From Paludibacter sp. (GTDB lineage Bacteria > Bacteroidota > Bacteroidia > Bacteroidales > Paludibacteraceae), in contig JACDZH010000010.1 of assembly GCA_013426815.1 (NCBI GenBank), positions 1 to 35,192 of the forward strand: 35,192 nt of DNA. The letters run 5' to 3'. Below are positions 9,740-26,929 of the stretch, in pieces (within the stretch, counting starts at the first letter, position 1; the number at the start of each line of letters is the position of its first letter). The position numbers and the translations under genes are program-made. The notes under the pieces were generated by a model, which searched no databases, was not told where the DNA came from, and saw only the letters and a list, made by a program, of their open reading frames with translations.

Positions 9740-12100
9740 TTACAATTTCATTATTTTGATTACATTTTTTTCATTTTTGCCAATAAGGTTCAAAACATGA
9801 ATTCCCACAGGTAAAAAGTCAAGATTATCAAAGGTTTGATTCGAGTTGCCCTTAATCTCTTTTTCGTATAGTTTCACTCCAAGATTGGAGAATATTTCTA
9901 TTTTTTCGAAGCTACCATCAGAGTTAAATGAAAACTGATTAGAAATTGGATTTGGAAAAATCTTAACATTATTGTTATTAATTATTGGAAATGCAGTTGT
10001 TTGATTTCGAATAAACATACATAGAACTTTATTCCGTTCAAATAAAGTCTTGGCATTTCCTACTGTTTCGTTAATAGCTGGAGCTGATGAAGTGGATGTA
10101 TCTAATGACTTAACTAAAGCAACCATCACATTTTGAGAGTTCACTACATCAACTATTGGTCTGTCCTCAATTGTTTTAGTTACTCCAGTTACACTATAAA
10201 GACGAATATTTTCACTATCGGTTATTTTTACGGGTGTATTAAAATCATTTCCACTTCCACTACTTACAGTACCCGCTTCTACTTTAAAATAATAGATATT
10301 TATGTTTCGTGCATTCTTAATTTCACTCATTGGATTTGTATTTCCCCGTTCTACATTATATGAATATATGGATAATGGTGCAATATTCCCACCAATAGTT
10401 TTGATCTTTGGCATACCATAAAATCTCCCTCCTCCATTACCTGAAAATGAAAGTGAACCCTCACAAAACACATAAGCACCCTTACCTGCTTTCCAGGATA
10501 TTTCTAAGGGTTTAAGAAACGAAATACTTGAAGTTGCATTAACATCATCGGCAGTAGTGACAGAATTTTTTATTTCTGTATATATTTTCGGATTCCCAAA
10601 TAAGTGCTGATTTAGACCTAAAGTTAAGACTTCGTTTACAATATAAGTCCCTTTGGGAACAAAAACCTTATCGCCTGCAGCTAAAGCATCTTTAAACGCC
10701 TGTGTATCATTTGCAAAATTATTTCCTAAGGCTCCATAATCTCTTACATTTACTACACCTGGTTCATCAAAGGCTGGAACAGGAGTCCAATGTTTTCGTT
10801 GTATTGCTAAGATATCAGGCTCTGAACTATCCTCTGAATTGAATATTGTGGATGTTGAAGTATTGCCATTAATCATATTTAATGAACCTTCTTTACAAAA
10901 AGAATATTCTTTCACCAAAGTCCATTTCGAAGGGTCAATTGCGGTAACATCAACAGTACTGAATTTATTAAATCCTTTCAAATAAGTATTTTCAAGAATT
11001 ATGTTCTCCCCTGTTGTTTTGGTTTTGGCAAAGACTGAATTTTGGCTAATTTTTGCTGCACAATCCACTAAACATAACCCACCATAGGTTCTGTAAGCAT
11101 TCGATAAATCAAAAGCAATTCCTGTTGTTGCCGGTTCAAAATACGAACCTGTAAATACCCATGCCAAATCGGAATATTGGTTATAAACACACGCTTTAGT
11201 TTGTCCTGTAAATTTACAACCTGCAAGTAATGGAAATCGATATAAATTTTCAATTTTCAAACCATATTCACCTCCGTCTACTTCAATATTGTAAGTTCCG
11301 CCACCTTGTCCGGGACAATTATTAAACCCTGCGTGAGCATTTGTTGCATATACTTTAGCATCCATCAAATAACATCCCTGTGAACCACTAAAACGTAATC
11401 CAATAGCACCTGGATTACCACCCAATTCAATATCGATACCTTTGTAAGCACAGTTAAAGAGTATGTTCGGCTGTTCAATACCCCAATTTGGAGTAGCAAC
11501 TAAACAAGGGTTGTTAGGGACAACTGTTCCTTCACGGTCGTCACGAGTTTGTGCCCAAATTTTTATTACGGGTTTTGGGCTTGTAGAAGATTGAAAACCA
11601 TCAGCACCCTGTTTTAAATGAATTATTGGACGGCCATTTTTATTTGAACCGATTAATACAATCTTATCTGAAGTATTTTGCCAGTAATGCTGTGTTTTAT
11701 TGTCTCCATCCATGTACTTACCGCAAGTATCTTCAAGTTTTCCCTGCATACCACCTTCTATAGGAAGTTTGTATACCGGTATTTCGCAGCTTAATGTATT
11801 ACTTATCAGGTAATGTCCACTTGGAAAGAAACAAGCTTTCTTTTGTGTTCGCGCATCAATTATAGCTTGCTGAAGTGCTTCAGTGCAATCAGTGTGTCCA
11901 GTAGGGTCGGCAAAGTAAGGCGACGCTGTAACATCGAGCAATCCGTATGCAGCTAAATCTACAACATCCGCTGTAACATTAACAGACTTCATCTGTGAAA
12001 AAGCAATTAAATTTGAAAATAAACAAAAATTACAAATCAAAGTATATTTCAAGAATGAATTGATTTTGATTTTTTTTATTTTGAATTTAAAAATAATCAT
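9740..12100 (-). CDS. Secreted protein with two pectin-lyase-fold modules and T9SS tail
   Basis: A 786-residue secreted protein. The N-terminus has a basic stretch and a hydrophobic signal (KYTLICNFCLFSNLIAFS). Two modules follow that resemble the pectate-lyase superfamily / right-handed beta-helix family (Pectate_lyase_3 type). The first begins near DLAAYGLLDVTASPYFADPTG, the second near NVRDYGALGNNFANDTQAF with FVPKGTYIV. The last 70 or so residues (IFPNPISNQFSFNSDGSFEKIEIFSN...) are a type A T9SS sorting domain, so the product goes to the cell surface. No catalytic residues can be assigned by eye; lyase or glycosidase activity is an inference from fold. It is the first gene of the left-hand run and carries the conserved regulatory module 41 bp upstream. 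Confidence 0.85.
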   Translation of the reverse strand: MIIFKFKIKKIKINSFLKYTLICNFCLFSNLIAFSQMKSVNVTADVVDLAAYGLLDVTASPYFADPTGHTDCTEALQQAIIDARTQKKACFFPSGHYLISNTLSCEIPVYKLPIEGGMQGKLEDTCGKYMDGDNKTQHYWQNTSDKIVLIGSNKNGRPIIHLKQGADGFQSSTSPKPVIKIWAQTRDDREGTVVPNNPCLVATPNWGIEQPNILFNCAYKGIDIELGGNPGAIGLRFSGSQGCYLMDAKVYATNAHAGFNNCPGQGGGTYNIEVDGGEYGLKIENLYRFPLLAGCKFTGQTKACVYNQYSDLAWVFTGSYFEPATTGIAFDLSNAYRTYGGLCLVDCAAKISQNSVFAKTKTTGENIILENTYLKGFNKFSTVDVTAIDPSKWTLVKEYSFCKEGSLNMINGNTSTSTIFNSEDSSEPDILAIQRKHWTPVPAFDEPGVVNVRDYGALGNNFANDTQAFKDALAAGDKVFVPKGTYIVNEVLTLGLNQHLFGNPKIYTEIKNSVTTADDVNATSSISFLKPLEISWKAGKGAYVFCEGSLSFSGNGGGRFYGMPKIKTIGGNIAPLSIYSYNVERGNTNPMSEIKNARNINIYYFKVEAGTVSSGSGNDFNTPVKITDSENIRLYSVTGVTKTIEDRPIVDVVNSQNVMVALVKSLDTSTSSAPAINETVGNAKTLFERNKVLCMFIRNQTTAFPIINNNNVKIFPNPISNQFSFNSDGSFEKIEIFSNLGVKLYEKEIKGNSNQTFDNLDFLPVGIHVLNLIGKNEKNVIKIMKL

Positions 12101-12140: not shown

Positions 12141-12195
12141 TAAGTCAAAAAAGTATACTTATGTGGACAAGAATAAATATGTTATAAAACATAAA
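12141..12195 (-). promoter_or_regulatory. Conserved regulon module, copy A
   Basis: Read toward the pectin-lyase-fold gene: TGTTTTATAACA (12180-12191), 10 bp, TGTCCACA (12162-12169), 14 bp, TGACTTA (12141-12147), then 40 bp to the ATG. The dyad here is TATGTT-TTAT-AACATA. Spacing is identical in copies B, C and D. Confidence 0.85.
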
Positions 12196-12561
12196 AAATG
12201 ATAGTTTTAAAATTTTGTTTCTATTATTTTGGTACTACTAGAATTTGTGTGGGTATTACGACAATTAACAATTAATACACGTAGTTACACATAGTCATAA
12301 AAATTAAGAAAATAAATGTTCACATAGTTTTACATTTTTACTTTGAAAATATATAAAATAGATGCTTTACAATTTGATATGAAAAACAATAACGAAGTTA
12401 TTGAACTATGTGATACTATAAATTTTGAGAAGAAACTATGTGATTATATTGTGAAAAAATATGTGTATCTCCCGATGCTCGGGATGTGCCATTTTTACTT
12501 GATTTTTTTAATTAACCATCAACCCACACAAAAGGTAGTAGAACCAGTTGTTTTATTAAAA
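12196..12561. other. Intergenic stretch with four ACTATGTG motifs
   Basis: No convincing gene; the 75-residue ORF at 12343-12570 looks like chance. The stretch contains CACATAGT at 12288 and 12321 and the inverted form ACTATGTG at 12405 and 12435, so two copies in each orientation arranged roughly symmetrically. It also holds a short GC hairpin at 12470-12484. What the motif cluster does is unknown. Confidence 0.4.
12470..12484. terminator. Possible terminator hairpin after the DUF6259-like gene
   Basis: TCCCGATGCTCGGGA is a 6-bp-arm hairpin in AT-rich DNA, 78 bp past the stop codon of the minus-strand gene at 12562. On the minus strand a T6 tract follows about 10 nt later. The gap between stem and T-run is wide for a classical terminator. 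Confidence 0.35.
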
Positions 12562-14976
12562 TTAAAATAAAACAAATTTATAGACAAAATCGGCATGAGA
12601 TTGAGACTGGATTTTCAAAAAATATATACCATTTGGAATTTTATGAAGTCTCATTTCACTTTCATTTTTTGTACTGGCAATAACCCTTCCATACATATCA
12701 TATAGGTTCATTTCACATTGTAAAATAGTTTCGTCCGAATTAACTCGAAGTATTTTCTCAGAGCGATTCAACAAAACATTAATTTTTGAATCCTGAATTT
12801 TTGAATCCTGAATTTTTGAATCCAGATTTTTTGAATCCAGAATTTTAGAATCCTGATTTGCTTTCAAAATACTTGTTGTTTTTTTCTTAAAAACAGCAGA
12901 ACATAATCTCCACTTTGGAATAGTCCATAAATAGCTATCACCTGGTTTAACATTAACTGATGATACTAATGTTTTCCCTTTATATAAATCTAAAACATAC
13001 ATCTTTAATGGCACTTTTAAACTAAGTTCAACATTTGATTCCGTTGTATCAATTGCAAACACTGCAATAGATTCATTTTGAGCTTTCCAGGTATTATGAA
13101 TTGCACCAGTACCTGATGAAACAATTGATTTAAGCAAACGACCATACATCAGATAATCTTTAGCATGTGTGTCGTTCATCGATTCATAATAATCTATTAA
13201 AACACTATCAGTTGATTTAGGTTCTTGGACTGTTGAATTCCAAAAAGCTATACTATTCATTTGTCCGTAAATAATTGAAGCGCATTGCTCTACATCTTTT
13301 GAAGTATTTGCATCACATAAACCGTATATTGTAGGAATATAATCGTGATAAACATATACAAAAAGTGGAATCTGATTTTTTTCAGAAGAAACTATCTTCC
13401 AATTACGTGCCTGATAACCACTTAAAATCATATTGTAAATCTCACAAGGCCATTCTTTTGTCAATGAAAAATTTTCAATATTTTTAGTTTTTGCTTTTTT
13501 TATTATTTCTTTATAGGTTTTAATCATTGTATCGGTTTCCCATCTACCATAAGGTACTGGATGACCGTGTAGTGTATTATAACAAGGTCCATTACCACAC
13601 ATAAATTGATCAGCATCGTTATGTATAGTAGTTACACCTCTTTCGAAAAGTCCATCAGCTACATCTGGTAACAAATTTTGTCCTCTACTAGTTCCTCTAC
13701 ATAAAAAATTGTCCGTTCTAACCTTATGTACATATACGTATAAACTTTCATTAATTTGAGTTCGGCAAAGTTCATTGCCATTATTATCATTGAAGTATTT
13801 TTCTAGGTTTTCGCTTATTTTTATATTACCTTCAATATACTTTGTCCAATGAAAACTTTCAATAAACCCAGCAGTAATTATTCCCACTTTCTTCAATTCT
13901 GAATTTAAAACTTCAAATTTACTATCTGAATTTTTAGTTGGTAAATAATCTATACCTACCCAATCACCATATTTTTCCCAACCAATTGGCCGATAAATAA
14001 TATTGGTCTTATACTTACCTGCCCAACATTTGAGTCGAACCCTCAAATTATATATATTATCTTCTAAGTAAAGTTCCGAACTGATAACTAAGGGTGTTTT
14101 GTGATAATTTTCAGGCACAGCTTTTCTATTTATGAGAAGAGTATCCGACCAGGATTGATTAATTGCCCAATTACGGTATACTTCTGCTGCATCCTCCCAG
14201 CTGTTTCCACATAATCCAATCATGGTTTGATAACTAGCATTCCAAGTTCTGCTATCGTAAGGCATACAATGACGAACAGCCATGCTAATTTCGTTATCGC
14301 TGTTATTTAAAAAACCAAACGATTTTACGTGCCCTACGGTATCATTTGTTCTAAGTAAAACGCCGGCTGAATCTGACAAAATAGCGGACATTTGTAATCC
14401 TTGTTTTGCAGGATAAAAATTTGTATATTTTGACCAATTAGTTTCCACCGATTGCATACGACCTTCATACATGGGATCTACAAATAGTTTGGAAACATTG
14501 CTATTTAGAAGTTTCCTTGAGGTTCTGAAACGTGGAAAATCCACCCCACTAACAAGTGAATCATTATTTAACTCAACATTAATGTGTGAAATTATTTCAG
14601 CATTTGAACTCAATACGAATTTTACTATAACAGTTACATGAGGTTTTACATTAATAATGGATTGTTTCCATGTATATTCCAATTTAAATTTCAATTCATT
14701 TTCATTATGTGTCAAAACACTTAAAGTAAATTTTGAAGCGTCAATAGCTGGTTTTCTTGGTGTAAATTTAGTTTTGTCTACGTAACTTAATGCAAAAAAA
14801 CTCACTGAATCTTTAGAACTTGCTATATGTTGAACACACCTTTTTTTATCGTACAATGATGTTATATGTTTTCCATTAGTTTGAAAAAAAATAGAATTGT
14901 TTTCCAATGTATACGTCTCTGACAAAACTGAACATGTAAAGAAAAATAAAAAATTAAATAATACAATTTTTTTCAT
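12562..14976 (-). CDS. Secreted TIM-barrel glycosidase-like protein (DUF6259-like) with T9SS tail
   Basis: An 804-residue protein with signal peptide MKKIVLFNFLFFFTCSVLS. The N-terminal third looks like a beta-rich domain. The middle (about residues 260-640: NWAINQSWSDTLLINRKAVP, IIYRPIGWEKYGDWVGIDYLP, GVTTIHNDADQFMCGNG) resembles DUF6259-type glycoside-hydrolase-like barrels. Near the C-terminus is a linker of five 5-residue units (KILDS, KNLDS, KIQDS, KIQDS ...), encoded by 15-bp DNA repeats. A T9SS sorting domain ending in IPNGIYFLKIQSQ...YKFVLF follows. It lies 32 bp after the extended end of the sulfatase pseudogene, so it was probably co-transcribed from regulatory module B. The activity is not established. 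Confidence 0.75.
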   Translation of the reverse strand: MKKIVLFNFLFFFTCSVLSETYTLENNSIFFQTNGKHITSLYDKKRCVQHIASSKDSVSFFALSYVDKTKFTPRKPAIDASKFTLSVLTHNENELKFKLEYTWKQSIINVKPHVTVIVKFVLSSNAEIISHINVELNNDSLVSGVDFPRFRTSRKLLNSNVSKLFVDPMYEGRMQSVETNWSKYTNFYPAKQGLQMSAILSDSAGVLLRTNDTVGHVKSFGFLNNSDNEISMAVRHCMPYDSRTWNASYQTMIGLCGNSWEDAAEVYRNWAINQSWSDTLLINRKAVPENYHKTPLVISSELYLEDNIYNLRVRLKCWAGKYKTNIIYRPIGWEKYGDWVGIDYLPTKNSDSKFEVLNSELKKVGIITAGFIESFHWTKYIEGNIKISENLEKYFNDNNGNELCRTQINESLYVYVHKVRTDNFLCRGTSRGQNLLPDVADGLFERGVTTIHNDADQFMCGNGPCYNTLHGHPVPYGRWETDTMIKTYKEIIKKAKTKNIENFSLTKEWPCEIYNMILSGYQARNWKIVSSEKNQIPLFVYVYHDYIPTIYGLCDANTSKDVEQCASIIYGQMNSIAFWNSTVQEPKSTDSVLIDYYESMNDTHAKDYLMYGRLLKSIVSSGTGAIHNTWKAQNESIAVFAIDTTESNVELSLKVPLKMYVLDLYKGKTLVSSVNVKPGDSYLWTIPKWRLCSAVFKKKTTSILKANQDSKILDSKNLDSKIQDSKIQDSKINVLLNRSEKILRVNSDETILQCEMNLYDMYGRVIASTKNESEMRLHKIPNGIYFLKIQSQSHADFVYKFVLF
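12781..12855. repeat. Five tandem 15-bp repeats encoding a pentapeptide linker
   Basis: Five consecutive 15-bp units of the type AATTTTTGAATCCTG, the first two identical and the others differing at one or two bases. They are in frame in the minus-strand gene and encode DSKIQ/DSKIL-like pentapeptides just before the T9SS sorting domain. Confidence 0.9.
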
Positions 14977-15008
14977 AAGATATTTGATTTATTTATTAAA
15001 ATTAATAA

Positions 15009-16892
15009 TTATATTTTGCACTTCCGATTTGTATTTTTTACCTGAATGAATGCCAAAACAATACCATCAGGTCACGAAGAATCAATAAATATTTCAACCG
15101 CTTCGGTAATTTTACCCGATTTCCAAGGCACTTTTCCATTGACTGTTATCAATGAAACAGTTAAATCAGCATCAAACTCAAAAACATTGAGATATATTGT
15201 TCCAATGGCTGAGTTTGGATTTATAATGGTTGTATTGTTTTTTGTTTTTGGTAAACCTGTTGGCAATTTGCCAATTTTTTCAAATTCAAAATAGTTGATT
15301 GTAAAGCCACTTTTCGAAAACCGAAATTGTAAATATGTTTTATTACCATATTTAAGTGTTAGCGTATCACTAGTAATTGTTTGCCATTCTGGTGTAACGG
15401 GAACAGATATTGAAGTATTCGTTTGTTCATTCAAAGTTGCTTCAATTGTACCACCACTTTGGGTATTTAAAACCCAGGTTTGTAAAAAATATTTTCCGGG
15501 CATTATGGTGTCGGATATAAATGCAAGCCATTCGTTGGCTGTAGTAGAATTGACACAGAATCTACTTCCACCATCACTGGATGCATGAATATCAACAACT
15601 TCTGAATTTCTATATTTACCACCCGTGTTTGTCGAATTACTATCATGGTAGCCAACTCTTTTGCCACCTCTGACAAATTTTTCGGCATGCATCACATCAG
15701 GAATTTTATTTTTTCGAATTGGTGTGCAAGGTTCCAAATTGAGTTGAAACTTCAAACAGTCAGTCATATACGACATACAGTTTTTTATAAAAGCATAAAG
15801 CAGATTATTAACTAGTATTTCCCATTCCATATCATTTACACTATGGTCGAATAATTCCTCACCGGAAGTAGGTTGTATATATCGAAAATATTCATTACGC
15901 ACTGATTGACCATCCTGTATAGTCCACGTCAAGGAACTCTGTTTGTTATCGGGGTTCATTAACAATGGAAGTAAACTTTCGCCCTCATTGTTCGTATTAT
16001 CAGGCAATCCGCAAAGTTCTGTAATAGTGGGGTATAAATCTATAGGTACTTTGCATAGACAATTCCCCTTAATATTCCCAGGTACTTTTAAAACTAAGGA
16101 CATTCTACAAGCCTCTTTCCATGGTGTAAATTTTTTATACCGAAGCTTTTCACCTAAATGCCAACCATGATCACCCCAAAAAATTACGATTGTATTTTCG
16201 GCATATTTACTATTTCGCAATGCATCAAGAAGAACCCCAACACAAGTATCTGTATAGTTTATACAGTCTAAATATGCTTGTAATGCAGTTTTTCGTTTAA
16301 AGTATTGTAAGGTTTTCTGATAATCAACAGATGGTTTTAAATTTCCGTGAATATCATTTAAAACATTATCGTTAATGGAAGGTAAAATCATGTAATCTTC
16401 CTGAAATTTATCAAAAAATTGCTGAAGCACAAACAAAGGCAGATGTGGACTTAAAAAACCACATGCAATCATAAAAGGTTTGTCATGTTCTTTGTTCAGT
16501 TCGTAAGCTTCCCACATTGCATTACCAAAGTCTGGCGTTTCTTTGAGTGTATTGCATGTTGAACCCCAATCAAAATTTGAATCGCCTGATGTGTTTAGAA
16601 TCCCATTTGCTCTGAAACATGTAATAAGCGAAGAAGGCGAAGGATTTGACAATACTGCAGAATAATTAGCCAGTTCGAAGACAACTCCTTCGGCTGCTAA
16701 TTTATCCATATTTAGAGTCTTGGTTTGCAGATGACTACCCAATAATCCAACATAGTAGTTTAAATCATCGACTGCAATAAAAAGTATATTATACGGTTTT
16801 TTTTTGGCAGATAGAACGCATATTGAATTTCCCAAAAAACCACCTAGAAGTTCTATCTGAAATCCTGTTGTGAAGTTGTGAGTGTGTTTCAT
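15009..16892 (-). pseudogene. Degenerate sulfatase with CBM6-like module and interrupted T9SS tail
   Basis: The sulfatase signature is clear (NILFIAVDDLN, QTKT, NMDKLAAEG, DHGWHLGEK), followed by a CBM6-like module (GYHDSNSTNTGGKYR, NEWLAF) and a T9SS-like end. The activation motif C/S-x-P-S-R-x-S-L-x-T-G reads SNPSPSSLITC, so the essential Arg and the Gly are lost. A block after RANGILN is missing compared with the family, and several usual prolines are changed (HLQ, TLN, VLQQ). The frame stops at TGA (15072-15074), but the same frame continues with PDGIVLAFIQVKNTN, the expected end of a sorting domain, to TAA at 15009. The ORF-track start is a TTG inside the regulatory module; I chose the ATG at 16892, although no good signal peptide remains. 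Best read as a dying gene. Confidence 0.8.
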
Positions 16893-16913
16893 TATCAACT
16901 TTTTTACTTGCAG

Positions 16914-16966
16914 TAAGTCATAAACAATTGACAATGTGGACAGATTAAAATGTGTTATAAAACATA
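16914..16966 (-). promoter_or_regulatory. Conserved regulon module, copy B
   Basis: Read toward the sulfatase: TGTTTTATAACA (16953-16964), 10 bp, TGTCCACA (16935-16942), 14 bp, TGACTTA (16914-16920), then 21 bp to the ATG at 16892. It also lies just past the stop of the permease gene on the same strand. Confidence 0.87.
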
Positions 16967-16973
16967 TTTTGTT

Positions 16974-18167
16974 TTATTTTCGCGGAATAAATCTTCGTAG
17001 CAGATCGTAATTTCTTCTTACATGGCATTTCGAACCACAGAATCCATCGTTGTTATATACCTTCCAATTGCATGTTCGGCATGGATTGACAATAAAATGT
17101 TTTGATTTTGAATAAATACCATATATAATTATTCCAAACAATATTATTCCAAAAGGCCAATGCCAAACTGGTATTTGAGGCGACATTCCCGTTGGATTTA
17201 TTCCTTCACCAAAAATTATTGGAACACAACATTGTTGTACAATCAATTCGCCCTGAACGCGGTAAGCATGGTATTGGTAATCGGGAAAAACAAGCTGGTC
17301 GGTTACTATACCTGCCACCAATGCCATAATAAAAAGCGATAAAGCGTAAAACACTGATGGTTTTAGTCCCATTGACCGACGGATAGCGTTTAATTCACCC
17401 AGATTAGTTCCAGGTCCGGCTATCATATAAGCAACGGCTGCCCCAGGAGAAGCTCCCAAGAGCAAAAGACCTTGCACAACCGGAATGGATGGAATACTAC
17501 AAGCATAAACCGGAATACCTAATAATATTACATAAAGAAGCGTGTAAATATCCTGTTGACCTAACCACGATGAAATCCATTCCATTGGTAGAAAAGTAAG
17601 TAATAATGCTGCAATGCTTAAACCAATAGTAATATCGACACTAACATCGGCGCCCAATTCGAAAAATGACCATTTAAGGGTTTTGAAAAACTTGTTTTTC
17701 GACTGTTTTTTTTCCTTGCCATCAACCATATATTCTTTCTTGCAACTTATACCTTTTTCATTGTCATTTGGAGATTTAAAAAGGCGATTGGCAATAAAAC
17801 CTATGGTGTACGATCCAACAACAGCTACAATAACAAATGTAAAAGTTAGTTTTAAACCCAAAAATGATAATGCAAGCGCAATTAATACAGGCGAAAGAAT
17901 GGGTGTAGAAATCATAAATGCAAATATATTGCCCATTGCTGCACCACTTCGGAACAACCCTATACCAAGTGGAATTGTACCACAAGAGCACAAAGGTAAA
18001 ATACTTCCAATGGTAACTGACTTTAAAAGTGCTAATGGAGATTTTTCACCCACCTGTTTTTGTAACACATTTTGAGGTACATAAAACTTGAGTATCCCTG
18101 CGATTAAAAACCCCAATACAATGTAAGGAGCTGATTCGAGTAAGGTATTGAATAGAGTGTTTAACAT
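16974..18167 (-). CDS. ArsP/SO_0444-type permease
   Basis: A 397-residue integral membrane protein of the DUF318/ArsP_1 permease family; members include proposed Cu/Zn efflux (SO_0444) and organoarsenical permeases. Family marks seen are ILPLCSCGTIPLGIGL (Cys60, Cys62) and YACSIPSIPVVQGLL. A cytosolic charged loop (about residues 145-165) separates the two membrane halves. After the last membrane segment comes a Cys-rich tail (CRTCNWKV..GFCGSKCH) that could bind metal. It starts 4 bp after the small membrane protein gene and ends the operon headed by the PhoD-like gene. Why a metal/oxyanion-type permease would share the polysaccharide regulon is unclear. The substrate is not known. Confidence 0.85.
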   Translation of the reverse strand: MLNTLFNTLLESAPYIVLGFLIAGILKFYVPQNVLQKQVGEKSPLALLKSVTIGSILPLCSCGTIPLGIGLFRSGAAMGNIFAFMISTPILSPVLIALALSFLGLKLTFTFVIVAVVGSYTIGFIANRLFKSPNDNEKGISCKKEYMVDGKEKKQSKNKFFKTLKWSFFELGADVSVDITIGLSIAALLLTFLPMEWISSWLGQQDIYTLLYVILLGIPVYACSIPSIPVVQGLLLLGASPGAAVAYMIAGPGTNLGELNAIRRSMGLKPSVFYALSLFIMALVAGIVTDQLVFPDYQYHAYRVQGELIVQQCCVPIIFGEGINPTGMSPQIPVWHWPFGIILFGIIIYGIYSKSKHFIVNPCRTCNWKVYNNDGFCGSKCHVRRNYDLLRRFIPRK

Positions 18168-18171
18168 ATTC

Positions 18172-18711
18172 TTACTTTAGTTTTGCAGTTGCATTCTCAA
18201 CAAAAAAAGCTGCATCGTAGGGTTTTGATGTGTCAATTTTAAATTTTCCTTTAACTATTACCTCTGTATTTATCATCTCATTTCGGCTCAATTTCCATGG
18301 CTTATCCAAATTTACCATAAGAGTCCAGCGCATGGCCTCTTGGGGGTCTATAACGCAGGCCTGAGCCAAACCTAAAGTTGGAAGTAAAAAGAATGACATG
18401 ATTTTGGTTGTAGAGTCATTAACCATTTCGCAACCGTTTCCAAAAAAAACCGCTGCTCCCGAAAGATTGATTTCATTCCCTTCAAGTTCTTTTAATTCTT
18501 TTGGAATAGAAAATTTGGCTGTTTGACCATCGATAATTGTTGCTCTAACTTTATAAAATGCATCCCAGTTTTTATTAATCTCATCAGTTTGTAGATTGTC
18601 CAACGTTGGCATATTTCCAACATTATCATTACTTACTTTACTAAACTCGATAAAATACAAAGCCGCAACCAATACAATAATCAAAACAACAATCAACCAA
18701 TTCCTTTTCAT
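18172..18711 (-). CDS. Small membrane-anchored extracytoplasmic protein (DUF3299-like)
   Basis: A 179-residue protein with one N-terminal membrane segment (WLIVVLIIVLVAALYFI) and a beta-rich extracytoplasmic domain. The pattern FSIPKELKELEGNEINLSGAAVFF, followed by a later MSFFLLPTLGLAQACVIDP, resembles DUF3299-type proteins, but I would not insist on the family. It sits between the PhoD-like gene (9-bp gap) and the permease (4-bp gap), so it is most likely a partner of the permease. No catalytic motif is visible. Confidence 0.7.
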   Translation of the reverse strand: MKRNWLIVVLIIVLVAALYFIEFSKVSNDNVGNMPTLDNLQTDEINKNWDAFYKVRATIIDGQTAKFSIPKELKELEGNEINLSGAAVFFGNGCEMVNDSTTKIMSFFLLPTLGLAQACVIDPQEAMRWTLMVNLDKPWKLSRNEMINTEVIVKGKFKIDTSKPYDAAFFVENATAKLK

Positions 18712-18720
18712 TTATTTACA

Positions 18721-20397
18721 CTATTTTAAAGGATCAATTTTCCAAGTGATATTCTGACCCGAACCGGATTGGCGTATAGTACGTGGCCAACCGGGCATCT
18801 GTTTTACACCGGCTTTGGTTACATCTGTAAACCTGTCCCAACTTTCGAATGTTACGCTTTTAGCTTTTTTATTGAATCGAACAATACCAAAACCTTCGCG
18901 AAGATTATCAGCTCCTTCTATGTTAGCATACGCATGCATAGTAATTCTATTTCCAAAGCCATCAAGATAGTCACCTGTAAATGGTAATGGATTTTTAGGT
19001 TCTTTGTTTTTTCCGGCTTTTTCATCCAAAGGATACCACCAACGTTTATAAACTGTATTTACTATAGCTGGTGCTACAAATGTAAAAGGTCCATCTTTGA
19101 AGTTATCAATACCGTTCTGAACTAAAGTTGCAATATGTTGATCACCAGCTAAATGCATAGCTCCGGCAGCCTTTATGGCACGTAAAGCTTCGTTTCGTCC
19201 TGTTTGAGGCCAGCTATTACAGTCGAGATCAGCTTGTAAGTAATTTTCAAATTCACCATGACGATGTGCAGAGCCCGCAAAGCCTGTTTGTGAAAGAACG
19301 CATTTCATAGAAACTCCTTTGTATTGTTTGCCCCATTCTTTGAGAAATTTAAGCTGACGTGAACCGAGTAATTCTAAACCAGGTAAATCAATCGATTTTG
19401 GATCGTATTCAGGATCACGTACATGGTCGGGACGCGGTCCTTGTTGTGGAATTTTGCCAGAGGGGCCACTTTTAAATTTGCGGTCCTCGATAATTGCAAA
19501 ATCGATGCCACCTATATTCATGCTTGTATAATAAACCCCAATACCTTGTTTAACAGGTGTCGGATCATACGCATCGGGCAAATGAGATGTTTGACAACGT
19601 TCCACCATTTTAACATATTCGTGATGATAAAAATAACCACCATCATTTCCTTTGTCTGTGGAAGCTATTTTACCACCCTCTCCCCAGAGATTACCCTGAC
19701 CAATATCATGATCATCGGGAATTGTTATGCAAGGACGATTACGAAACAACTCGCGAAACTGAAGACCAAAAAGAAGCCACGCTGCAGTATGTTCGGTATG
19801 ATCGTAACTTTGGTCTCCTGCAAAAAAAACTAAATCGGGATTAAAATAATTAACATTTCGTGTAAACTCAGCACGCTGATCACGCTCTCTATTTGAATTA
19901 CAATTTAGCGATGCCACTACAATTTCGTTTTTATAGGTTGGCTGTTTTCGTATCAAGCCTTGGTAAAATGCCTTTTGTCCATGTCGCAAACGGTACTTTA
20001 CATCTTTGGTTTCGTCCCATTTTTCAACTCTTAATAAAGCAGACCAGCCTAAGTCATTCACTTTCGATTTTGCCACTTCTACCCAATTACCGTTTTTAAA
20101 AAGTTCCAAACGTACAGTACGTGTTTCGTTTGGATACAATGGAAAAAGTTGTGCTGTCATTTTCATCACTTTGTTTTGAGTGGTGTAAATACCGAAACAA
20201 ATAACCTGATCCCGAGGTACATCTACATCAATGATTTTTTTTGGATTATTTTTTATCGATTTTGCAAGATTCCACCAATCGTTTATACAATAGGTATCAA
20301 TTTTTTCGAAAGGAGCCTTTACTGGAGGCGTACCATACTGTGCGTGAGTTGCACTAAAAATACTTAACAGAAGTACCGTAGAGATGAATGTTTTCAT
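18721..20397 (-). CDS. Exported PhoD-like metallophosphatase
   Basis: A 558-residue calcineurin-like/alkaline phosphatase D-type metallophosphoesterase. I start it at the ATG at 20397, which opens a clean signal peptide (MKTFISTVLLLSIFSATHAQ); the ORF-track start adds 20 residues before that signal. Metal-site motifs are FFAGDQSYDH (191-200), IPDDHD (226-231) and, near residue 425, LAGDQHIA. An N-terminal beta domain of about 150 residues precedes the catalytic domain, as in PhoD proteins. There is no T9SS tail, so it is probably periplasmic. It heads an operon with the small membrane protein and the permease, behind regulatory module C. The substrate (phosphodiester or monoester) is unknown. 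Confidence 0.87.
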   Translation of the reverse strand: MKTFISTVLLLSIFSATHAQYGTPPVKAPFEKIDTYCINDWWNLAKSIKNNPKKIIDVDVPRDQVICFGIYTTQNKVMKMTAQLFPLYPNETRTVRLELFKNGNWVEVAKSKVNDLGWSALLRVEKWDETKDVKYRLRHGQKAFYQGLIRKQPTYKNEIVVASLNCNSNRERDQRAEFTRNVNYFNPDLVFFAGDQSYDHTEHTAAWLLFGLQFRELFRNRPCITIPDDHDIGQGNLWGEGGKIASTDKGNDGGYFYHHEYVKMVERCQTSHLPDAYDPTPVKQGIGVYYTSMNIGGIDFAIIEDRKFKSGPSGKIPQQGPRPDHVRDPEYDPKSIDLPGLELLGSRQLKFLKEWGKQYKGVSMKCVLSQTGFAGSAHRHGEFENYLQADLDCNSWPQTGRNEALRAIKAAGAMHLAGDQHIATLVQNGIDNFKDGPFTFVAPAIVNTVYKRWWYPLDEKAGKNKEPKNPLPFTGDYLDGFGNRITMHAYANIEGADNLREGFGIVRFNKKAKSVTFESWDRFTDVTKAGVKQMPGWPRTIRQSGSGQNITWKIDPLK

Positions 20398-20482
20398 TTT
20401 AAACAAATATGAATAGTTTATACGATTTTTTAAAACATTAGTTAAAAAAAACTTCATAATTCAATTATCAAAAGAAAAACAG

Positions 20483-20537
20483 TAAGTCACAAATGATTGA
20501 AATTGTGGACAGCCTTAAATGTGTTATAAAACACATT
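20483..20537 (-). promoter_or_regulatory. Conserved regulon module, copy C
   Basis: Read toward the PhoD-like gene: perfect dyad AATGTGTTTTATAACACATT (20518-20537, 8-bp arms around TTAT), then TGTCCACA (20504-20511) and TGACTTA (20483-20489) with the same 10- and 14-bp spacers. The chosen ATG at 20397 would leave a leader of roughly 75 nt. Confidence 0.88.
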
Positions 20538-20579
20538 TTATTTTAAAAACAACGCTATGGGAGTGATTTATCCTATTTA

Positions 20580-21161
20580 TCAACTAAATAGAAAAAGGAA
20601 TAAAATCGTTAAATGATCTATTTTTCCATCGAGCATCGATTTTAATGAACCGATAGCACGAAATACCAACTTACGAGCCGAATCATTTTTTAATTTCATA
20701 ATATTGCATATCTGCTCATATTCCATACTACACTCATAACGTAAATATATAATTTCTCGTTGACGCGCACTAAGACTACCTAAAGCATTTACAAGCATTT
20801 TTTCTTTTGAGCTCACTTTTTCTTTATCTGCCATCTCTTCTTCCAATGAAAAAACACCTTCAAATTTTAATGGATGTTCTTCAAAATAATCTATTTTATT
20901 GCTTTTGGTTAACTCTTTTATCATTGCATTTTTCAATGCTTTTAATAAATAATAGCGGATATTGTTGGTGGTATTCAAACGTTCTTTAGCCTGAATAATT
21001 TTTATAAAAACCTCCTGAATTGAGTCTTTAATAAACTCAGGGTCATTCTTAAAGCGTATTCCATATTGGAACATAGCATCAAAATGCTGAAAATAAATTT
21101 CAGACAGAGCACTTTTGTCGCCTGACTTAAACCTATCCCATATTTGTATATCTTCTTCCAA
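20580..21161 (-). CDS. ECF-type RNA polymerase sigma factor, orphan
   Basis: A 193-residue sigma-70 family protein of the extracytoplasmic-function group. Sigma region 2 spans about residues 20-85 (DSIQEVFIKI is the core-binding and -10-recognition part) and region 4 about 125-175 (LSARQREIIYLRY, then helix-turn-helix YEQICNIMKLKNDSARKLVFRAI). A short hydrophobic C-terminal tail (LTILFLFLF) is typical of Bacteroidota ECF factors. Such genes are usually followed by a FecR-type anti-sigma gene and SusC/SusD; none is present here. Regulatory module C begins 43 bp downstream of its stop. It has its own housekeeping-type promoter. It is the natural candidate to read the TGTCCACA-N14-TGACTTA elements in this window, but that is inference. 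Confidence 0.9.
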   Translation of the reverse strand: MEEDIQIWDRFKSGDKSALSEIYFQHFDAMFQYGIRFKNDPEFIKDSIQEVFIKIIQAKERLNTTNNIRYYLLKALKNAMIKELTKSNKIDYFEEHPLKFEGVFSLEEEMADKEKVSSKEKMLVNALGSLSARQREIIYLRYECSMEYEQICNIMKLKNDSARKLVFRAIGSLKSMLDGKIDHLTILFLFLFS

Positions 21162-21212
21162 TGTAGTGTGATTTTATATATAAGGTGTTTTCCTATTCGG
21201 GCTTTCGGGGTA

Positions 21213-21244
21213 CAAAAATACATTTTTTTTTAGTTTGGTGCAAA
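21213..21244 (-). promoter_or_regulatory. Bacteroidota housekeeping promoter of the sigma gene
   Basis: On the minus strand TTTG (21241-21244) is followed after 20 bp by TATTTTTG (21213-21220), an exact fit to the Bacteroidota -33 TTTG and -7 TAnnTTTG consensus. The start of transcription would be near 21206, about 45 nt before the sigma factor ATG. Confidence 0.72.
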
Positions 21245-21348
21245 AAAGAAATTAGAACACACAAAACAATCTTGAAATAATATTGAGTTTTTTAAGAGAT
21301 TGAAAAAAAACAATTTAAATAACTTAATGATTCAAAATAGCTAATAAG

Positions 21349-21655
21349 TTCTACTTTGACAGCTTTATTTTAAACGAAATAATAACGTGGATTTAGCGGA
21401 TTATTTTTTGATATGATTACTGATTTATACACCGATTAAAAAATTTCAAAAAAGAAATTTGCAGATAGAAGTTATAATGTATCTTTATTTCATCCTAATT
21501 TTGACTTGTCAAAATTTAAATCCGAATTATATCTGTTTTTTTTCAATTTTTTTCAATTTATATCAGTTTTAATCTGCCTTATTCGTTAAATCCGAGTTGC
21601 TATTCTTTTTAAATTTCTTTCCTTGAAAATTAATCTTTAATCTGTCAAAGTAGAA
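21349..21655. repeat. 307-bp fold-back element with 14-bp inverted ends (MITE-like)
   Basis: TTCTACTTTGACAG (21349-21362) is repeated as its exact reverse complement CTGTCAAAGTAGAA (21642-21655). Near the exact middle is a perfect hairpin, AATTTTGACTTGTCAAAATT (21497-21516). The two arms also resemble each other loosely (GGATTTAGCGGATT versus CGGATTTAACGAAT on the other strand). No ORF of substance lies inside. No clear target-site duplication is seen. It may be a miniature transposable element or a fold-back repeat. Confidence 0.65.
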
Positions 21656-21839
21656 TTATGTAGTGTTAGGTTATTATTTAATGTGTTTGAAATTTGCTTT
21701 ACAATAGTAATATAATGCTGTTTTTAGATTTTTTGATTTGATTTGAATTGATTTAAATTAGCACGAAAAGAAAAAAATAATCATTAGAGTAAATTTGTGT
21801 TCTCTCATGTTTTTTTAATAATAAAGTGGCAATATCAAC

Positions 21840-22275
21840 ATGGAAAACATCAATATACGTGTATACAATAAATTCTTATAAAAAATCTAATAATCTAAAA
21901 TGTAGTTATTTATCAACAAAAAGTTCGTTATGATTAAAGATGGGATAAACTAAAAGGATAAATAACAAATACTACACTCTCAGCTAAAGAGTTTTATGAA
22001 CAATATCATGGATTGTAGGTTGTAGAAAATGCATTTACAGTTACTATAGGAACGATATACTCAAACCAATGTTTCAATTTAGTGCATGTAGGATAGAGGC
22101 TTATGTTTGTAACTGTTTTATAGCATAAAAGGTTTAAAAAGAACAGGATAAGTTATTGAAGCTTAAAGTAATAGACCTTATTGTTGACAAAGTGATAAGT
22201 ATTTCTAAAACAATAACTACAATCAAAGTGAAACTGTTCAAAGTTTTACACAATTATAAAAAACTATGGTCATAA
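21840..22275 (+). mobile_element. Wreck of an IS1634-type (IS4 superfamily) transposase
   Basis: No ORF survives, but reading across three frames gives the C-terminal part of a transposase: ENINIRVYNKFL and KKFVMIKDG (from 21840), then LKG*ITNTTLSAKEFYEQYHGL*VVENAF (from 21950), then KPMFQFSACRIEAYVCNCFIA*KV*KE and DKVISISKTITTIKVKL (from 22063). These match the usual order of IS1634 transposase motifs (NRGYNKFLK, LKGYITNT, VERAF, RPMFHFT..RIEAH, AYKVYKEL). At least two frameshifts and many stops are present. The N-terminal two thirds and the element ends are not recognisable. Confidence 0.65.
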
Positions 22276-22584
22276 CATCCAGAAATAAATCTAATGATAT
22301 ACTATTTGAAGTCAGCTTTTGGAATAGCATCTTGTATTTATCTACTTATTAACTTTTGATGAGAATTTCATAAATGCAAAAATATGGAATCTCTATTTCA
22401 AATAGAGCAATCTGATTAAAAATTTGCATTTTTGGAAGTCCCAATGTCGAAGTAAGGCAATGATTATGTTTTATATTTGAACCAACCATTTTACCTAAAT
22501 TGAGACCAATATCAATCCAATACGCCCTCATTAATGGTCTGAATTGCTAAAATTATTCATACATTAATTGCAATTTAAAAGAGA
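22276..22584. other. Intergenic stretch, nothing recognised
   Basis: AT-rich DNA between the transposase relic and the TldE-like gene. The 60-residue minus ORF at 22349-22531 has no recognisable family and no clear start signals; I regard it as chance. Part of this may be further decayed insertion sequence. Confidence 0.4.
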
Positions 22585-24306
22585 TTATTTTGCAGCTATC
22601 GGACTAGAAACTATAGGCAGTTTTGCTTTTGGTGAATTGTCTATTTCAATACTTATGTCGTTAAATGCAATTGCTTTTGGTACAATAAATGAAACGGGAA
22701 TTTGTTGATTTGATAAAAAGTTATATGGTATTTGTTCGTCAGTTCCTCCCAAAACGTATTTGAATGAAAGCATTGGAAAATCACTAATATTGGCACATCT
22801 AACCATTTTTTCTTCACCGGTTTTTATCGAAACTTCATAAATGCCAACTGGCTTTGGGAGACCAGAACTACCTGGTTGAAAGAACTTTGCAAAATTTGAA
22901 GTTTCAAGTTTTCGGATAATATAATAATATTTAAGACCGTTTTTTTTAGTTTCTAAGGTTACATTTTTTATAAGTGCGCCATAATTCTCTCCATTTGAAA
23001 ACTTAATATTAATTACTCCAGGTGATTTTGTATATCCACCCATTAAATTGAATCTTAAGTGCCCATTCGACTCATTAATTTTGGAGCTTGGAACTCTATC
23101 ACTTAACAATGTATTTAAAATTCCTTTGTCCACAAGTTTTAAATCATTGCTTGGTTGTACTCCTTCTGCATCTATATTAAATGCGCCAATCAGTGTTGTA
23201 TTTTCAAAACTATTGGTTTTTGATTCGGTAATAATTGAAATATTTTCGTTACAAATTCGTTTTCCAATTTTATTTTGAATTTTGTTACTCATGCCCTTTG
23301 CCGAAGCTAATGCGTAAATTGGCTCACGCGAACTTATTAAGCCATTGTTTCCAAACAGCTTGATATTGAACAACTCGGCAAGAGCATCTGCTTCAAAAAC
23401 TACTGTACCTTGGTACGCCTCTTTAATTACTGATGCTGTACAACGATTATTAAGATCTTCAGCCATTTTTGTAACTTCTTTTGCCAATGCCTCTAAAGTA
23501 GGTAATTGTGAATTTAGCTTGGCAAATTTTAAAATATGGTCGTTAAGTATTTCTCCGTCATCCGCTTGTGTACTTGCGTTTACAGCAATACCGGCAATAC
23601 TTAAATTATTTCTTATTTTTGACCCTTCGCTATTTATTAAATAACAATTTGAATTCACAAACAAAAGATTTACAGTAGAACTTTGGATTTTGGGATATTT
23701 TTTAAAAATGGACGAAATTTCTTTGATATATCTCTCCCAGAATACTTTATCTGCTTTTAAAACTGTAGCATCTTCCAAAAAAACCATTGGTTTTGCTTGT
23801 GTATAGTCATCAAGAACCTTATTATTGTCAGCAATTTGTTGTTTAATAGCTGTTAACTTCTGGTTGTATTTTTCGATAGATAATTTGTACAATTTGTCTA
23901 ACATCGACCAGAAAAATCGCCTAATAGCTAAATAATCAGCATCATAAGGAATTGCTAATCTTGGACCCCCTGATCCGAAGTTGCGTGATCCATCTTGAAA
24001 ATTTTCATCGGTTAGCTTGTAATTGCCAACCAACAACCTAAATGAAGCATTTTTTAAGGGGTTTTCTTTTGATTGAATAATTGCTCCCAACGACGCATTT
24101 GCAAAATATACTTGTCCATCATTGTAATAATTTGCAATGAAAAAGGGTGGTTTATTGTTATTTAAGGTTAAATTAGTCAAGTTGCGATTCATTTCATCGC
24201 TTAATGCTTTGAAAATTAAATCTTCAGATTTATTAGCATGTGCAAAAAGTGCATAATTTATTGTGCTATAAATCACGGTAATAAATAGAAATTTTAATGT
24301 TTTCAT
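22585..24306 (-). CDS. Exported TldE/PmbA-like protein
   Basis: A 573-residue TldD/PmbA (TldE)-family protein with an N-terminal signal (MKTLKFLFITVIYSTINYALFA). The segment AYQGTVVFEADALAELFNIKLFG (about residues 297-318) occupies the position of the TldD metal motif but lacks HExxxH, as in the non-catalytic TldE subunit. Downstream KLVDKGILNTLLSDRVPSS and a gamma-like C-terminal beta region follow. A region with coiled-coil character is visible near residues 145-165. It starts 10 bp after the TldD-like gene, so the two would make a heterodimeric metalloprotease. Classical TldD/TldE is cytosolic and trims modified peptides; a signal peptide places this one outside the cytoplasm. Confidence 0.85.
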   Translation of the reverse strand: MKTLKFLFITVIYSTINYALFAHANKSEDLIFKALSDEMNRNLTNLTLNNNKPPFFIANYYNDGQVYFANASLGAIIQSKENPLKNASFRLLVGNYKLTDENFQDGSRNFGSGGPRLAIPYDADYLAIRRFFWSMLDKLYKLSIEKYNQKLTAIKQQIADNNKVLDDYTQAKPMVFLEDATVLKADKVFWERYIKEISSIFKKYPKIQSSTVNLLFVNSNCYLINSEGSKIRNNLSIAGIAVNASTQADDGEILNDHILKFAKLNSQLPTLEALAKEVTKMAEDLNNRCTASVIKEAYQGTVVFEADALAELFNIKLFGNNGLISSREPIYALASAKGMSNKIQNKIGKRICNENISIITESKTNSFENTTLIGAFNIDAEGVQPSNDLKLVDKGILNTLLSDRVPSSKINESNGHLRFNLMGGYTKSPGVINIKFSNGENYGALIKNVTLETKKNGLKYYYIIRKLETSNFAKFFQPGSSGLPKPVGIYEVSIKTGEEKMVRCANISDFPMLSFKYVLGGTDEQIPYNFLSNQQIPVSFIVPKAIAFNDISIEIDNSPKAKLPIVSSPIAAK

Positions 24307-24316
24307 GTTCCTTAGT

Positions 24317-26011
24317 TTAATTTTTGTCGTTAGGTCTTGCTAAAATGTAAGGACGGACTTGTGATTTGGCTTTTTTTTGTGTTTCAATATTCTTTACCAA
24401 TATTGTTGGGCTACAACACGAAACCGGTATACCCCCCGACTCAGCTCCACAAGTACCATTAAATACACCTTTATCTCCACCTGCCATATCAATTTGAGAA
24501 AACATGGATAATGGTGTTCCTATTAAATCTACCCCTCGAACTAATTCGTCAGCACGACCATCAACATAAACCCTGTAAACTAATGTTGGAGTCACATTAA
24601 AAGCACTTGGCATAAATCTTCCGGTAGTAGTAAACCCACCTGTAACTTCCTGAAACAAATAGCCATATTCAGCTTTTTGATTTTTAGCAAGTCGTATAAG
24701 TTCATCACGAAGTTCTTTTGTGGTTTTTGAATCTGATGTCTCAATCACCAAATTTGACTGACGCGAAATTGGTTGTAACCCCGCCTGGGCTCTACCATGA
24801 CCATTGGAAGCCGGAAAACCTTTGATAGGAGAACGTGACATTAGAAAATTTTTTAAAACACCATTTTCTACAATGTTCACTTTTTCTGCTTTTGTACCTT
24901 CATCGTCATATTGGTAGTAACCGTTTAGTGCAATACCATTGAAAGTTTTTTGAAGTGGATCACAATATACACTCAATGCTTTGGGCAAAATTAACTCGTT
25001 TACTTTTTTCTTGAAAGTTTGTCCATCAAATTCACTTTTCATCCGTTGTCCTTCAACTCTATGTCCAAAAATCTCGTGAAAAAATACGCCTGCAGCCTCT
25101 GCCGAAAGCAATGCCGTACCAGAAAAAGGATCGGCTACGGGTGCATTTTTTAATGCGGTTAAGTTTTTAACCTATAATTCAGTTTGCTTCATAATATCGT
25201 TGTCGGATGGTAGCAAATCAGGGCGATAAGAAAAAAAAGATTTGTATAAAGGCATTTCCATACCGTCTTTTGATTTAATAAATCCTTGAACATATAAATT
25301 TACAGACGTGTTGTTCTGAACAATATTATCACCCTTGCTGCTAACAAAATACTTGCGAAGTATTTCATAATTTATATTCGTTTCGCCATAAAATATGTCT
25401 TCATCTTTAAGAAATTCTGCCGAATACTTTCTTAATCGTTTTTCCCAATCTTTAGTATCAAATTTTATATAATCATTTTTTAATGGTTCTTCTTCAAATT
25501 TTAAAGGAGCATTCATAGTAAAATCTGCAGCTTTATCCTCTTCCTCAACTTTAATAGCAACATTGGTTTTTACTTTTGAGAATTTTGAAATTGCTTCTTG
25601 GTAAGCGTCATTTGTAGCTTTCCAAATCAAACTCTTTATTGCATCAGGATTATTTTCAGTTGATAGTTGAATTCTACTGAAGGATGTATAATCTGTTTTA
25701 TCTCTCAATTTGTGGAAATTATCTAACTGGGGAGTTCCAACTCGAATTGAAATTGTTAATGATCTGGTTTGGTTCGTTGATGAGTTTGTTAATGTCCCAA
25801 ATTGGGCATTTACTTGATAATTTTTGACATCATCGACTCTATAAGCAATATAGTAAACAGGTATTTCTTGTAGTTTTAAAACTTCAAATTCACGAGCTAC
25901 TTCTTCTTGCAAAATAAGTGATAATTTGTCTTGAGAAAAAATCTGATAACTGCAAATTGCAGAAAATAAAATAATTAAACTAAATGTTCTTCTTAGAATT
26001 CCTTTTTTCAT
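24317..26011 (-). pseudogene. Exported TldD-like metalloprotease split by an in-frame TAG
   Basis: Two ORF-track entries (25172-26011 and 24317-25111) are one protein. The first ends ..MKQTEL then TAG (25172-25174), and the same frame continues VKNLTALKNAPVADPFSGTALLSAEAAGVFFHEIFGH without any shift. The second ORF's listed start is a TTG inside this stretch, not a real start. The joined product (about 564 codons) has a signal peptide (MKKGILRRTFSLIILFSAICSYQIFS), an N-terminal TldD-like domain, the zinc motif HEIFGH, and a TldD C-terminal part ending CCSPTILVKNIE. Only one base separates it from an intact gene, so this is a young nonsense mutation, a sequencing error or suppressed translation. 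Confidence 0.82.
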
Positions 26012-26157
26012 TGCGTTTTATTATTAATTTGAAATAAGCTACATATTGTGCTTTACCTTAACCCCGTTACATAATTGTAAATGATAGATAAACAAAGCAT
26101 TACTAAGTATAGTCAGTGAATCATACTTTGTTTTTGCGAATATTTGGTTTTAAATTG

Positions 26158-26165
26158 CAAAGATA
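26158..26165 (-). promoter_or_regulatory. Possible -7 box for the TldD/TldE operon
   Basis: The minus strand has TATCTTTG, a perfect TAnnTTTG box, about 150 bp before the TldD-like ATG. No good TTTG -33 box is found at the expected distance, so this is only tentative. Confidence 0.35.
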
Positions 26166-26870
26166 GTTTTTTTAACTTAAGAAAAATGTTTTATTAATTT
26201 TATTGATTGAAATTGGATTTGAATAAGCAAAACAAATAAAACTCTCAAAAAAATTATTAATAAGCAGTGTGACTATCATGGCAAAACTTACCATTCATTT
26301 CGATGGTACTGAACACACTTTGTTTGTATAAAAAATTTCATTCGCCAAAAATCCCAAAGCAACAAATAAGGCTAAAGAAAGTAATGACTATATTTGATAA
26401 TCTGCAATTTATACATTATTTCAATTATTTTTCGATTCTTAATTTTAACAATCATCGAGCAGATGAAACTATAAGAAATGGATAAACATTTTACAAATAT
26501 AACAGTTTTTATCGGAAAATTCAAAGAACTACACATAAAATTAGATATTAACTGCCTTAATTGCGGGAATAGGGAGCATAATTTGCTTTCCTGTCTCGAT
26601 GCACTCTGTAAGTATGTCCGGTTATAGTCGCAGTTCATTACGTTGCTGCACATTAATGCATGGTTCTAAATTATCCATTTTAAAACTTATTTAAAGTCAT
26701 TTATTGCTTAAGAGTACCAAAATGGCTTTTCCAGCCTCTGTGTAGTTACAAACAAAAGCGTATATTTTTTAAAACTCTTCATTTTTCTAATTGCTCACAA
26801 AAGAGTTAATATTCAATTATTTTCATAATCAATTGACACTTTATATTGCATAAAAAGATTGAAAATATTT
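26166..26870. other. Long intergenic stretch between divergent units
   Basis: AT-rich DNA between the TldD-like gene and the regulon module D. Small ORFs occur: MAKLTIHFDGTEHTLFV near 26279, and a 49-codon frame at 26478-26627 (MDKHFTNITVFIGKFKE...). None is recognisable. They may be remnants of lost genes or chance frames; I would not call any of them a gene. Confidence 0.35.
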
Positions 26871-26878
26871 TACTTTTA

Positions 26879-26929
26879 TGTTTTACAACACATTTTTTAC
26901 TGTCCACAATTTATATATATTTTGACTTA
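26879..26929 (+). promoter_or_regulatory. Conserved regulon module, copy D
   Basis: TGTTTTACAACA (26879-26890), 10 bp, TGTCCACA (26901-26908), 14 bp, TGACTTA (26923-26929), then 62 bp to the ATG at 26992. This is the only copy on the plus strand, and it again faces its gene, so orientation tracks transcription. Confidence 0.87.

Follow-up and report, generated by a model that had tools for sequence, protein, structure and literature searches.

The 35,192-nucleotide stretch of Paludibacter sp. DNA considered here (the window; GenBank contig JACDZH010000010.1) was the entire contig C35 of a 3.77 Mb Bacteroidota draft genome comprising 499 contigs. It contained genes for a secreted pectin-lyase-fold protein, a sulfatase, a PhoD-like protein, an extracytoplasmic function (ECF) sigma factor and proteins secreted by the type IX secretion system (T9SS), together with four copies (A to D) of a composite sequence module (Table 1). 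In the register of the module, the dyad TGTTTTAYAACA occupied positions 1-12 and was followed by N10, the box TGTCCACA (23-30), N14 and TGACTTA (45-51). The arrangement TGTTTTAYAACA-N10-TGTCCACA-N14-TGACTTA was exact at all four sites, and each time TGACTTA was followed at a distance of 21-62 bp by a start codon; a preliminary description of the window had reported four identically spaced copies, each facing a gene, and this was exact. The perfect 8-bp dyad arms that it had pointed out in copy C were also present (AATGTGTT/AACACATT). The right half, TGTCCACA-N14-TGACTTA, had four zero-mismatch matches in the window and no other match within 3 mismatches. Labels given earlier to the first downstream genes agreed with Pfam for the pectin-lyase fold, the sulfatase and PhoD, the last being a weak match barely over its cut-off. 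The label glycosidase-like, given to the gene behind copy D, was not borne out: a search of solved structures matched the T9SS sorting tail only and gave no identity.

The regulon had been called local, which was wrong: about 16 further copies were found on other contigs. In total, ~20 modules lay on eight contigs, near copies and divergent partners included: four each on C35 and C142, three each on C238 and C304, two each on C115 and C379, and one each on C289 and C156. The dyad and TGTCCACA occurred together without mismatch 15 times in the genome, against ~0.0003 predicted from base composition by our own arithmetic. A matrix trained on the 20 module copies and run over 228 kb of contigs recovered all 20 (at least 27 bits) and one weak match (15 bits), and had zero matches in three shuffles. 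GACTTW was at its fixed position also in copies retrieved by dyad and box only. Every copy was non-coding (20 of 20; copy B overlapped its own gene only with a TTG start), and the first downstream gene was on the same strand in all 19 copies where the contig extended. A start codon followed nGACTTW by 21-87 bp in 16 of the 20 copies; two of these 16 downstream open reading frames (ORFs), both on C238, were short (77 and 74 aa). Two other matches in the genome, on C303 and C417, were coding and were set aside as chance.

Strong information among the 20 copies was confined to the functional blocks, while the 56-bp flanks had an identity near that of shuffled sequence. A dispersed repeat is therefore excluded as the source of the copies, as is recent duplication, and the unrelated flanks agree with the earlier judgement that gene duplication was an unlikely origin of the shared sequence. 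That a dispersed repeat or mobile-element end had come to lie near genes by accident might have been suggested by ~20 copies in one genome and absence of the module from all 47 other species of the genus (47 of 47). With no coding copy, all copies gene-facing where the contig extends and only functional blocks conserved, distribution and unshared flanks refute that explanation, to which we give next to no probability. A search of GTDB r220, which may omit near relatives of this genome, gave only five exact dyad-plus-box matches elsewhere, single in each case; these for the most part lay inside genes with no nGACTTW and were rejected as chance. The genome scan, with its 20 non-coding, gene-facing copies and no spread into non-promoter positions, supports the earlier proposal of a regulon's promoter module rather than a repeat; as far as comparison of sequence can support it, this regulon is genome-wide.

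The left dyad resembled a published element. In the available text of Ravcheev et al. (2013, PMC3878776), the palindrome wwwTATGTTnTAnAACATAwww upstream of Bacteroides sugar-use operons is tentatively given to the Crp-family protein BT4338, and the available text of PMC6989115 describes the fusA2 site CCTTATGTTACATAACATTGTT as required for BT4338 binding and activation, with its necessity shown in vivo. The module dyad agreed with the published palindrome TATGTTnTAnAACATA; the core TGTTnTAnAACA was exact in most copies, and the full 14-mer was exact in several, with one outer mismatch in the others. Judged by its sequence, the left dyad is the already described Crp/Cur (BT4338) palindrome and is not new. 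In two places one 12-bp dyad was shared by a divergent promoter pair, each at exactly N10 (C142:68237(-)/68276(+) and C304:11928(-)/11967(+)), and a similar pair at C238:7627(-)/7668(+) had one side 2 bp longer. Shared dyads fit a symmetric dimer working in both directions.

The right half, GTCCACA-N14-nGACTTW, was a fixed pair with ECF spacing in 20 copies, close upstream of start codons. On the sequence evidence it is best explained as the -35/-10 pair of an ECF sigma, and the preliminary description's view of the right blocks as having ECF geometry is still the best reading. That TGACTTA stood in place of the usual TAnnTTTG was likewise confirmed across the copies. The modules could also be housekeeping sigma-ABfr promoters that rely wholly on Cur, with a degenerate -7 element and TGTCCACA as a variant of the -33; their spacing is near TTTG-N19/20-TAnnTTTG, and some copies read TTTGTCCACA. 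However, TAnnTTTG was at that position in none of the 20 copies, GACTTW was itself conserved, and CCACA was invariant, which a housekeeping sigma does not demand. Exact dyads also occurred in the genome without the box, and those on C133, C270 and C450 had TAnnTTTG nearby downstream instead. We regard a housekeeping promoter as very unlikely.

Alternatively, TGTCCACA and nGACTTW could be half-sites of an AraC-type factor, either a hybrid two-component system (HTCS) or a CgrA-like protein, with RNA polymerase starting elsewhere. The 22-bp spacing is similar to that of HTCS operators of Bacteroides, given in the available text of PMC3878776 as direct repeats ~21 bp apart, which also places two conserved blocks ~21-22 bp apart before genes of polysaccharide utilization loci (PULs); the carrageenan regulon of Zobellia is under the AraC-family CgrA, according to the available text of PMC5698469. 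Unlike HTCS operators, the two blocks here were not direct repeats, having only TG.C in common, and no HTCS-sized protein was found in the genome: the largest AraC-type frame was 385 aa, and none lay on the regulon contigs. An HTCS-regulated operator was rejected on these grounds. Start codons 21-30 bp away also leave no space for a further promoter, and relatives carry the box at their ECF/FecR promoters, which makes half-sites of any AraC-type factor a quite unlikely account.

A candidate sigma factor for the ECF pair came from a comparison with relatives. The sigma encoded in the window adjoined copy C, had no FecR gene nearby and passed TIGR02937 (65.7 vs 42.9 bits), which identified it as ECF. 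Its relatives in genomes G048, G047 and G045 were each followed by a FecR gene, and in G046 FecR was divergently adjacent. The box GTMCAYA was found upstream of FecR in G048, G045, G047 and G046 and also upstream of the FecR gene on contig C156 of the own genome, where CGTCCACA-N14-GTATTTA scored 19.7 bits (~3e-5 expected in that gap). In G048 and G045 the box was always followed by N14-CGTTA, before FecR and sigma genes alike. There were exactly two exact copies of TGAGTACANA-N14-CGTTA in G048 (C3:247755 and 248649) and exactly two in G045 (C99:19778 and 20583), in both genomes one before sigma and one before FecR; within the same genus, this sequence has the form of a clean autoregulatory ECF promoter. 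The box was absent upstream of the out-of-clade ECF/FecR genes examined (C105, C224, C480, C347, C169 and C494). Because the box is shared with the FecR and sigma promoters of the clade, GTCCACA-N14-nGACTTW has the -35 and the geometry of promoters from the clade of the window sigma. The likely cognate sigma of the modules is therefore the one encoded beside copy C, on this sequence-based comparison. Its own gene had a housekeeping-type promoter, TTTG-N20-TATTTTTG, by the consensus in the available text of PMC7366714. Window positions 21250-22580, upstream of the sigma gene, were ~1.3 kb of AT-rich sequence without a notable ORF.

Three FecR matches were found in the genome. Those on C105 and C224 were beside an ECF sigma and the one on C156 was not; it sat behind module-headed genes (a pectin-lyase-fold gene and two lambda-carrageenases) and directly behind it came a gene for a SusC that carries an STN signalling domain. 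An N-terminal profile of the FecRs paired with the clade scored 33.8 bits for the C156 protein vs -0.1 for C105 and -0.9 for C224, and reached a maximum of 12.6 bits over 2000 shuffles. An orphan sigma, an orphan FecR and a matching N-terminal profile together point to a physically split set, and the window sigma with the C156 FecR and STN-SusC is best read as such. The dyad could instead be a Cur site next to an ECF promoter of a different genomic sigma, the window sigma being a mere neighbour. The genome has 12 ECF-like matches, adjacency to copy C is no proof and the window sigma diverges from the rest of its clade, but the box recurs at the FecR promoters of that very clade and not at the other ECF/FecR genes examined, and a FecR of the matching N-terminal type lies inside the regulon. 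We consider a different sigma unlikely, with a minor share of the probability.

Genes behind the modules belonged mostly to a carrageenan-degradation-like set and included those for lambda-carrageenases (PF25290-25292), many sulfatases, pectin-lyase-fold proteins, members of glycoside hydrolase (GH) families GH2, GH3, GH9, GH36/melibiase and GH97, DUF6259 proteins, aldose epimerase and SusC/SusD pairs; membership of an operon past the first gene was judged from spacing and strand. The lambda-carrageenase Pfam domains were behind modules at C142 and C156. The own genome had four lambda-carrageenase matches, and among 393 sampled genomes of the order only four other genomes had any; no module was upstream of the lambda-carrageenase loci in these four other genomes. 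With so few lambda-carrageenase genomes in the order and such genes among the module targets, the regulon is probably for carrageenan, a rare lineage-specific trait here, its specificity being judged by Pfam domains.

The genome also encoded ~720-800 aa secreted paralogues with a DWLxDQP N-terminal motif and no catalytic Pfam family (Table 1); several of them were behind modules, and they may be an undescribed carrageenan enzyme or binding family. At C142 13561-20519 (+) there were four tandem ~540-aa paralogues, the first with an FGE-sulfatase (sulfatase-modifying factor-like) domain, in a sulfatase-rich genome. Some regulon genes appeared broken, by decay or assembly error, at C304 10372-11873, C379 2717-4817, C115 ~20080 and C5 167-1147; they included a sulfatase in three pieces, a fragmented DUF6259 gene, an early stop behind one module and a lambda-carrageenase with an internal TAA. 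In the window, the ArsP-type permease (PF03773) and 179-aa unknown protein of the copy C unit (together 16974-18711) are odd members of a polysaccharide regulon. A TldD/PmbA-like peptidase gene at 24317-26011 (-) was apparently split into ORFs 25172-26011 and 24317-25111, the second beginning just ahead of HEIFGHR, and is a pseudogene or an assembly error.

Table 1. Module copies, associated genes and DWLxDQP paralogues (window coordinates unless a contig is named).
Feature	Position	Strand	Remarks
Module copy A (dyad, -35-like TGTCCACA, -10-like TGACTTA)	12141-12191	-	Unit starting with pectin-lyase-fold gene
Module copy B	16914-16964	-	Heads sulfatase gene and DUF6259 gene
Module copy C	20483-20533	-	Heads PhoD-like gene, then 18172-18711 and permease gene
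Module copy D	26879-26929	+	Heads 26992-29394, 29409-31562 and subsequent T9SS-secreted proteins
Pectin-lyase-fold secreted protein	9740-12100	-	First gene behind copy A; Pfam
DUF6259 gene	12562-14976	-	Unit of copy B
Sulfatase with CBM6/35-like domain	15072-~16892	-	First gene behind copy B; Pfam
ArsP-type permease	16974-18167	-	Unit of copy C
179-aa protein	18172-18711	-	Unit of copy C
PhoD-like protein	18721-20457	-	First gene behind copy C; Pfam
Orphan ECF sigma, candidate reader of TGTCCACA-N14-nGACTTW	20580-21161	-	Adjoins copy C
Housekeeping-type promoter of sigma gene	21212-21243 (approximate)	-	Begins 83 bp before ORF start
Secreted protein of unassigned family, T9SS sorting tail	26992-29394	+	First gene behind copy D; DWLxDQP; paralogues behind C142 modules
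DWLxDQP paralogue	29409-31562	+	Unit of copy D
DWLxDQP paralogue	C379 6180-8357		
DWLxDQP paralogues	C142 59696-61861, 65770-68178, 73608-75773, 75789-78155		

Taken together, a composite promoter in which a Cur-type dyad is joined to an ECF pair read by the window sigma, with FecR and receptor on C156, is in our view the probable explanation of these sequences. A Crp-family dimer of the Cur (BT4338) type would occupy the left dyad and report carbon limitation, and TGTCCACA-N14-nGACTTW would be the -35/-10 of an ECF sigma, most likely that of the window. This sigma would be produced from its housekeeping promoter and held by the C156 FecR as anti-sigma. The STN-type SusC behind that FecR would sense carrageenan or its fragments, and the signal passed via FecR would free the sigma for transcription of the ~20 units of the carrageenan-degradation-like regulon. 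These units would include the genes upstream of the C156 FecR and receptor, probably with transcription continuing through both, so that feedback would arise. The centre of the Cur dimer would lie ~20 bp before the -35, or near -51 with nGACTTW taken as the -10; from there the dimer would aid the ECF polymerase, and the two inputs, carrageenan via ECF and carbon limitation via Cur, would form an AND gate. The sequences themselves show the module with its genome-wide spread and non-coding sites, its target genes, the agreement of the dyad with the published motif, the -35 and spacing common to related ECF/FecR promoters, and the orphan sigma and FecR; recognition by the sigma, the pairing of the split parts, induction by carrageenan, Crp activation over repression and the AND logic are all inferred.

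Several observations weigh against this explanation. The window sigma had only 35-39% identity to its nearest relatives in the genus and fell under the cut-off of TIGR02985, the Bacteroides expansion family 1 of FecI-like sigmas (60.3 vs 126.4 bits), so it is not filed in that subfamily. The box in G047 was GTACATA with a spacing one base shorter, and that in G046 was GTCCATA with a spacing one base longer; in clade members G010, G009 and G053, where no adjacent FecR was seen, the box was absent upstream of the sigma gene. The -10 was also unlike that of the relatives (GACTTW vs CGTTA). No Cur orthologue was picked out among the 16 cNMP-binding (cyclic nucleotide-binding) proteins of the genome, one of these candidates being a full Crp/Fnr protein on C202 with 2gau as its best match. 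Finally, the draft state of the assembly may partly produce the orphan status of the sigma, though its gene sits mid-contig.

The sign of the Cur input can also be questioned. A Crp-family protein at the dyad might repress, giving sigma AND NOT Cur: in B. thetaiotaomicron, BT4338 acts as activator and as repressor (available text of PMC6989115), and Cur represses the ECF gene sigH-1. However, the dyad lies upstream of the -35 without overlapping it, single dyads serve divergent promoters, and carbohydrate-use genes are classically activated by BT4338. Repression by Cur is thus possible and less likely given the geometry, and we allow it only a small chance. For the stronger version of the composite promoter, in which ECF promoters across the regulon obligatorily need a Crp/Cur dimer at a fixed site ~20 bp ahead of the -35, divergent promoters can share a single dyad and an AND gate joins substrate sensing by the split ECF/FecR/receptor set to carbon starvation, we see the case as evenly balanced.

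Parts of the circuit have counterparts elsewhere. As in the Crp/Cur regulon of Bacteroides (available texts of PMC3878776 and PMC6989115), the dyad ATGTTnTAnAACAT matches the palindrome and the targets are carbohydrate-use genes, whereas here the dyad is fused at a fixed N10 to an ECF-type -35/-10 at ~20 promoters, a composite not described in those texts. The FecI-FecR-SusC signalling of Bacteroidota PULs likewise has an ECF sigma, FecR, an STN-domain SusC and a box promoter before FecR; in the present genome, by contrast, sigma and FecR are on separate contigs, one pair apparently serves ~20 dispersed units, a Crp site is added and the sigma misses the TIGR02985 cut-off. SigW-1 with the sulfatase-rich PUL59 of B. 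thetaiotaomicron (PMC12596196) is alike in that, when nutrients are limiting, a distant ECF governs genes for sulfatases and SusC/D, and differs in a TGTT-type non-canonical -10 whose motif was not significant; its available text reports no fixed Crp dyad. The Zobellia galactanivorans carrageenan regulon is also dispersed over multiple loci and includes sulfatases and glycosidases as well as a distant SusCD pair, although it is governed by CgrA and no ECF/Crp composite promoter was found in the available text of PMC5698469. The Cur site, ECF/FecR/STN-SusC signalling and a dispersed carrageenan regulon are thus known kinds. The preliminary description had held that no Bacteroidota promoter of this form was described; the dyad had in fact been published, and for the fixed ECF/Crp composite none was found in the open-licence full texts of the literature. 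New, and likewise not found in those texts, are the fixed fusion of Cur and ECF elements at ~20 promoters, a named candidate sigma with a predicted pairing, and the putative split circuit.

Bacteroidota genomes encode numerous ECF sigmas linked to the use of polysaccharides, but only a small number of the corresponding promoters have been described. The 2013 regulon study holds that transcript starts are required for the prediction of ECF promoters (available text of PMC3878776). Here, comparison of sequences yields one putative ECF promoter with ~20 targets, a candidate sigma, anti-sigma and receptor, and Cur as a second input. This offers a concrete handle on how substrate sensing and carbon status may be joined in polysaccharide regulons. 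On this reading, a gene set for the degradation of a seaweed polysaccharide appears to need two signals for its switch-on.

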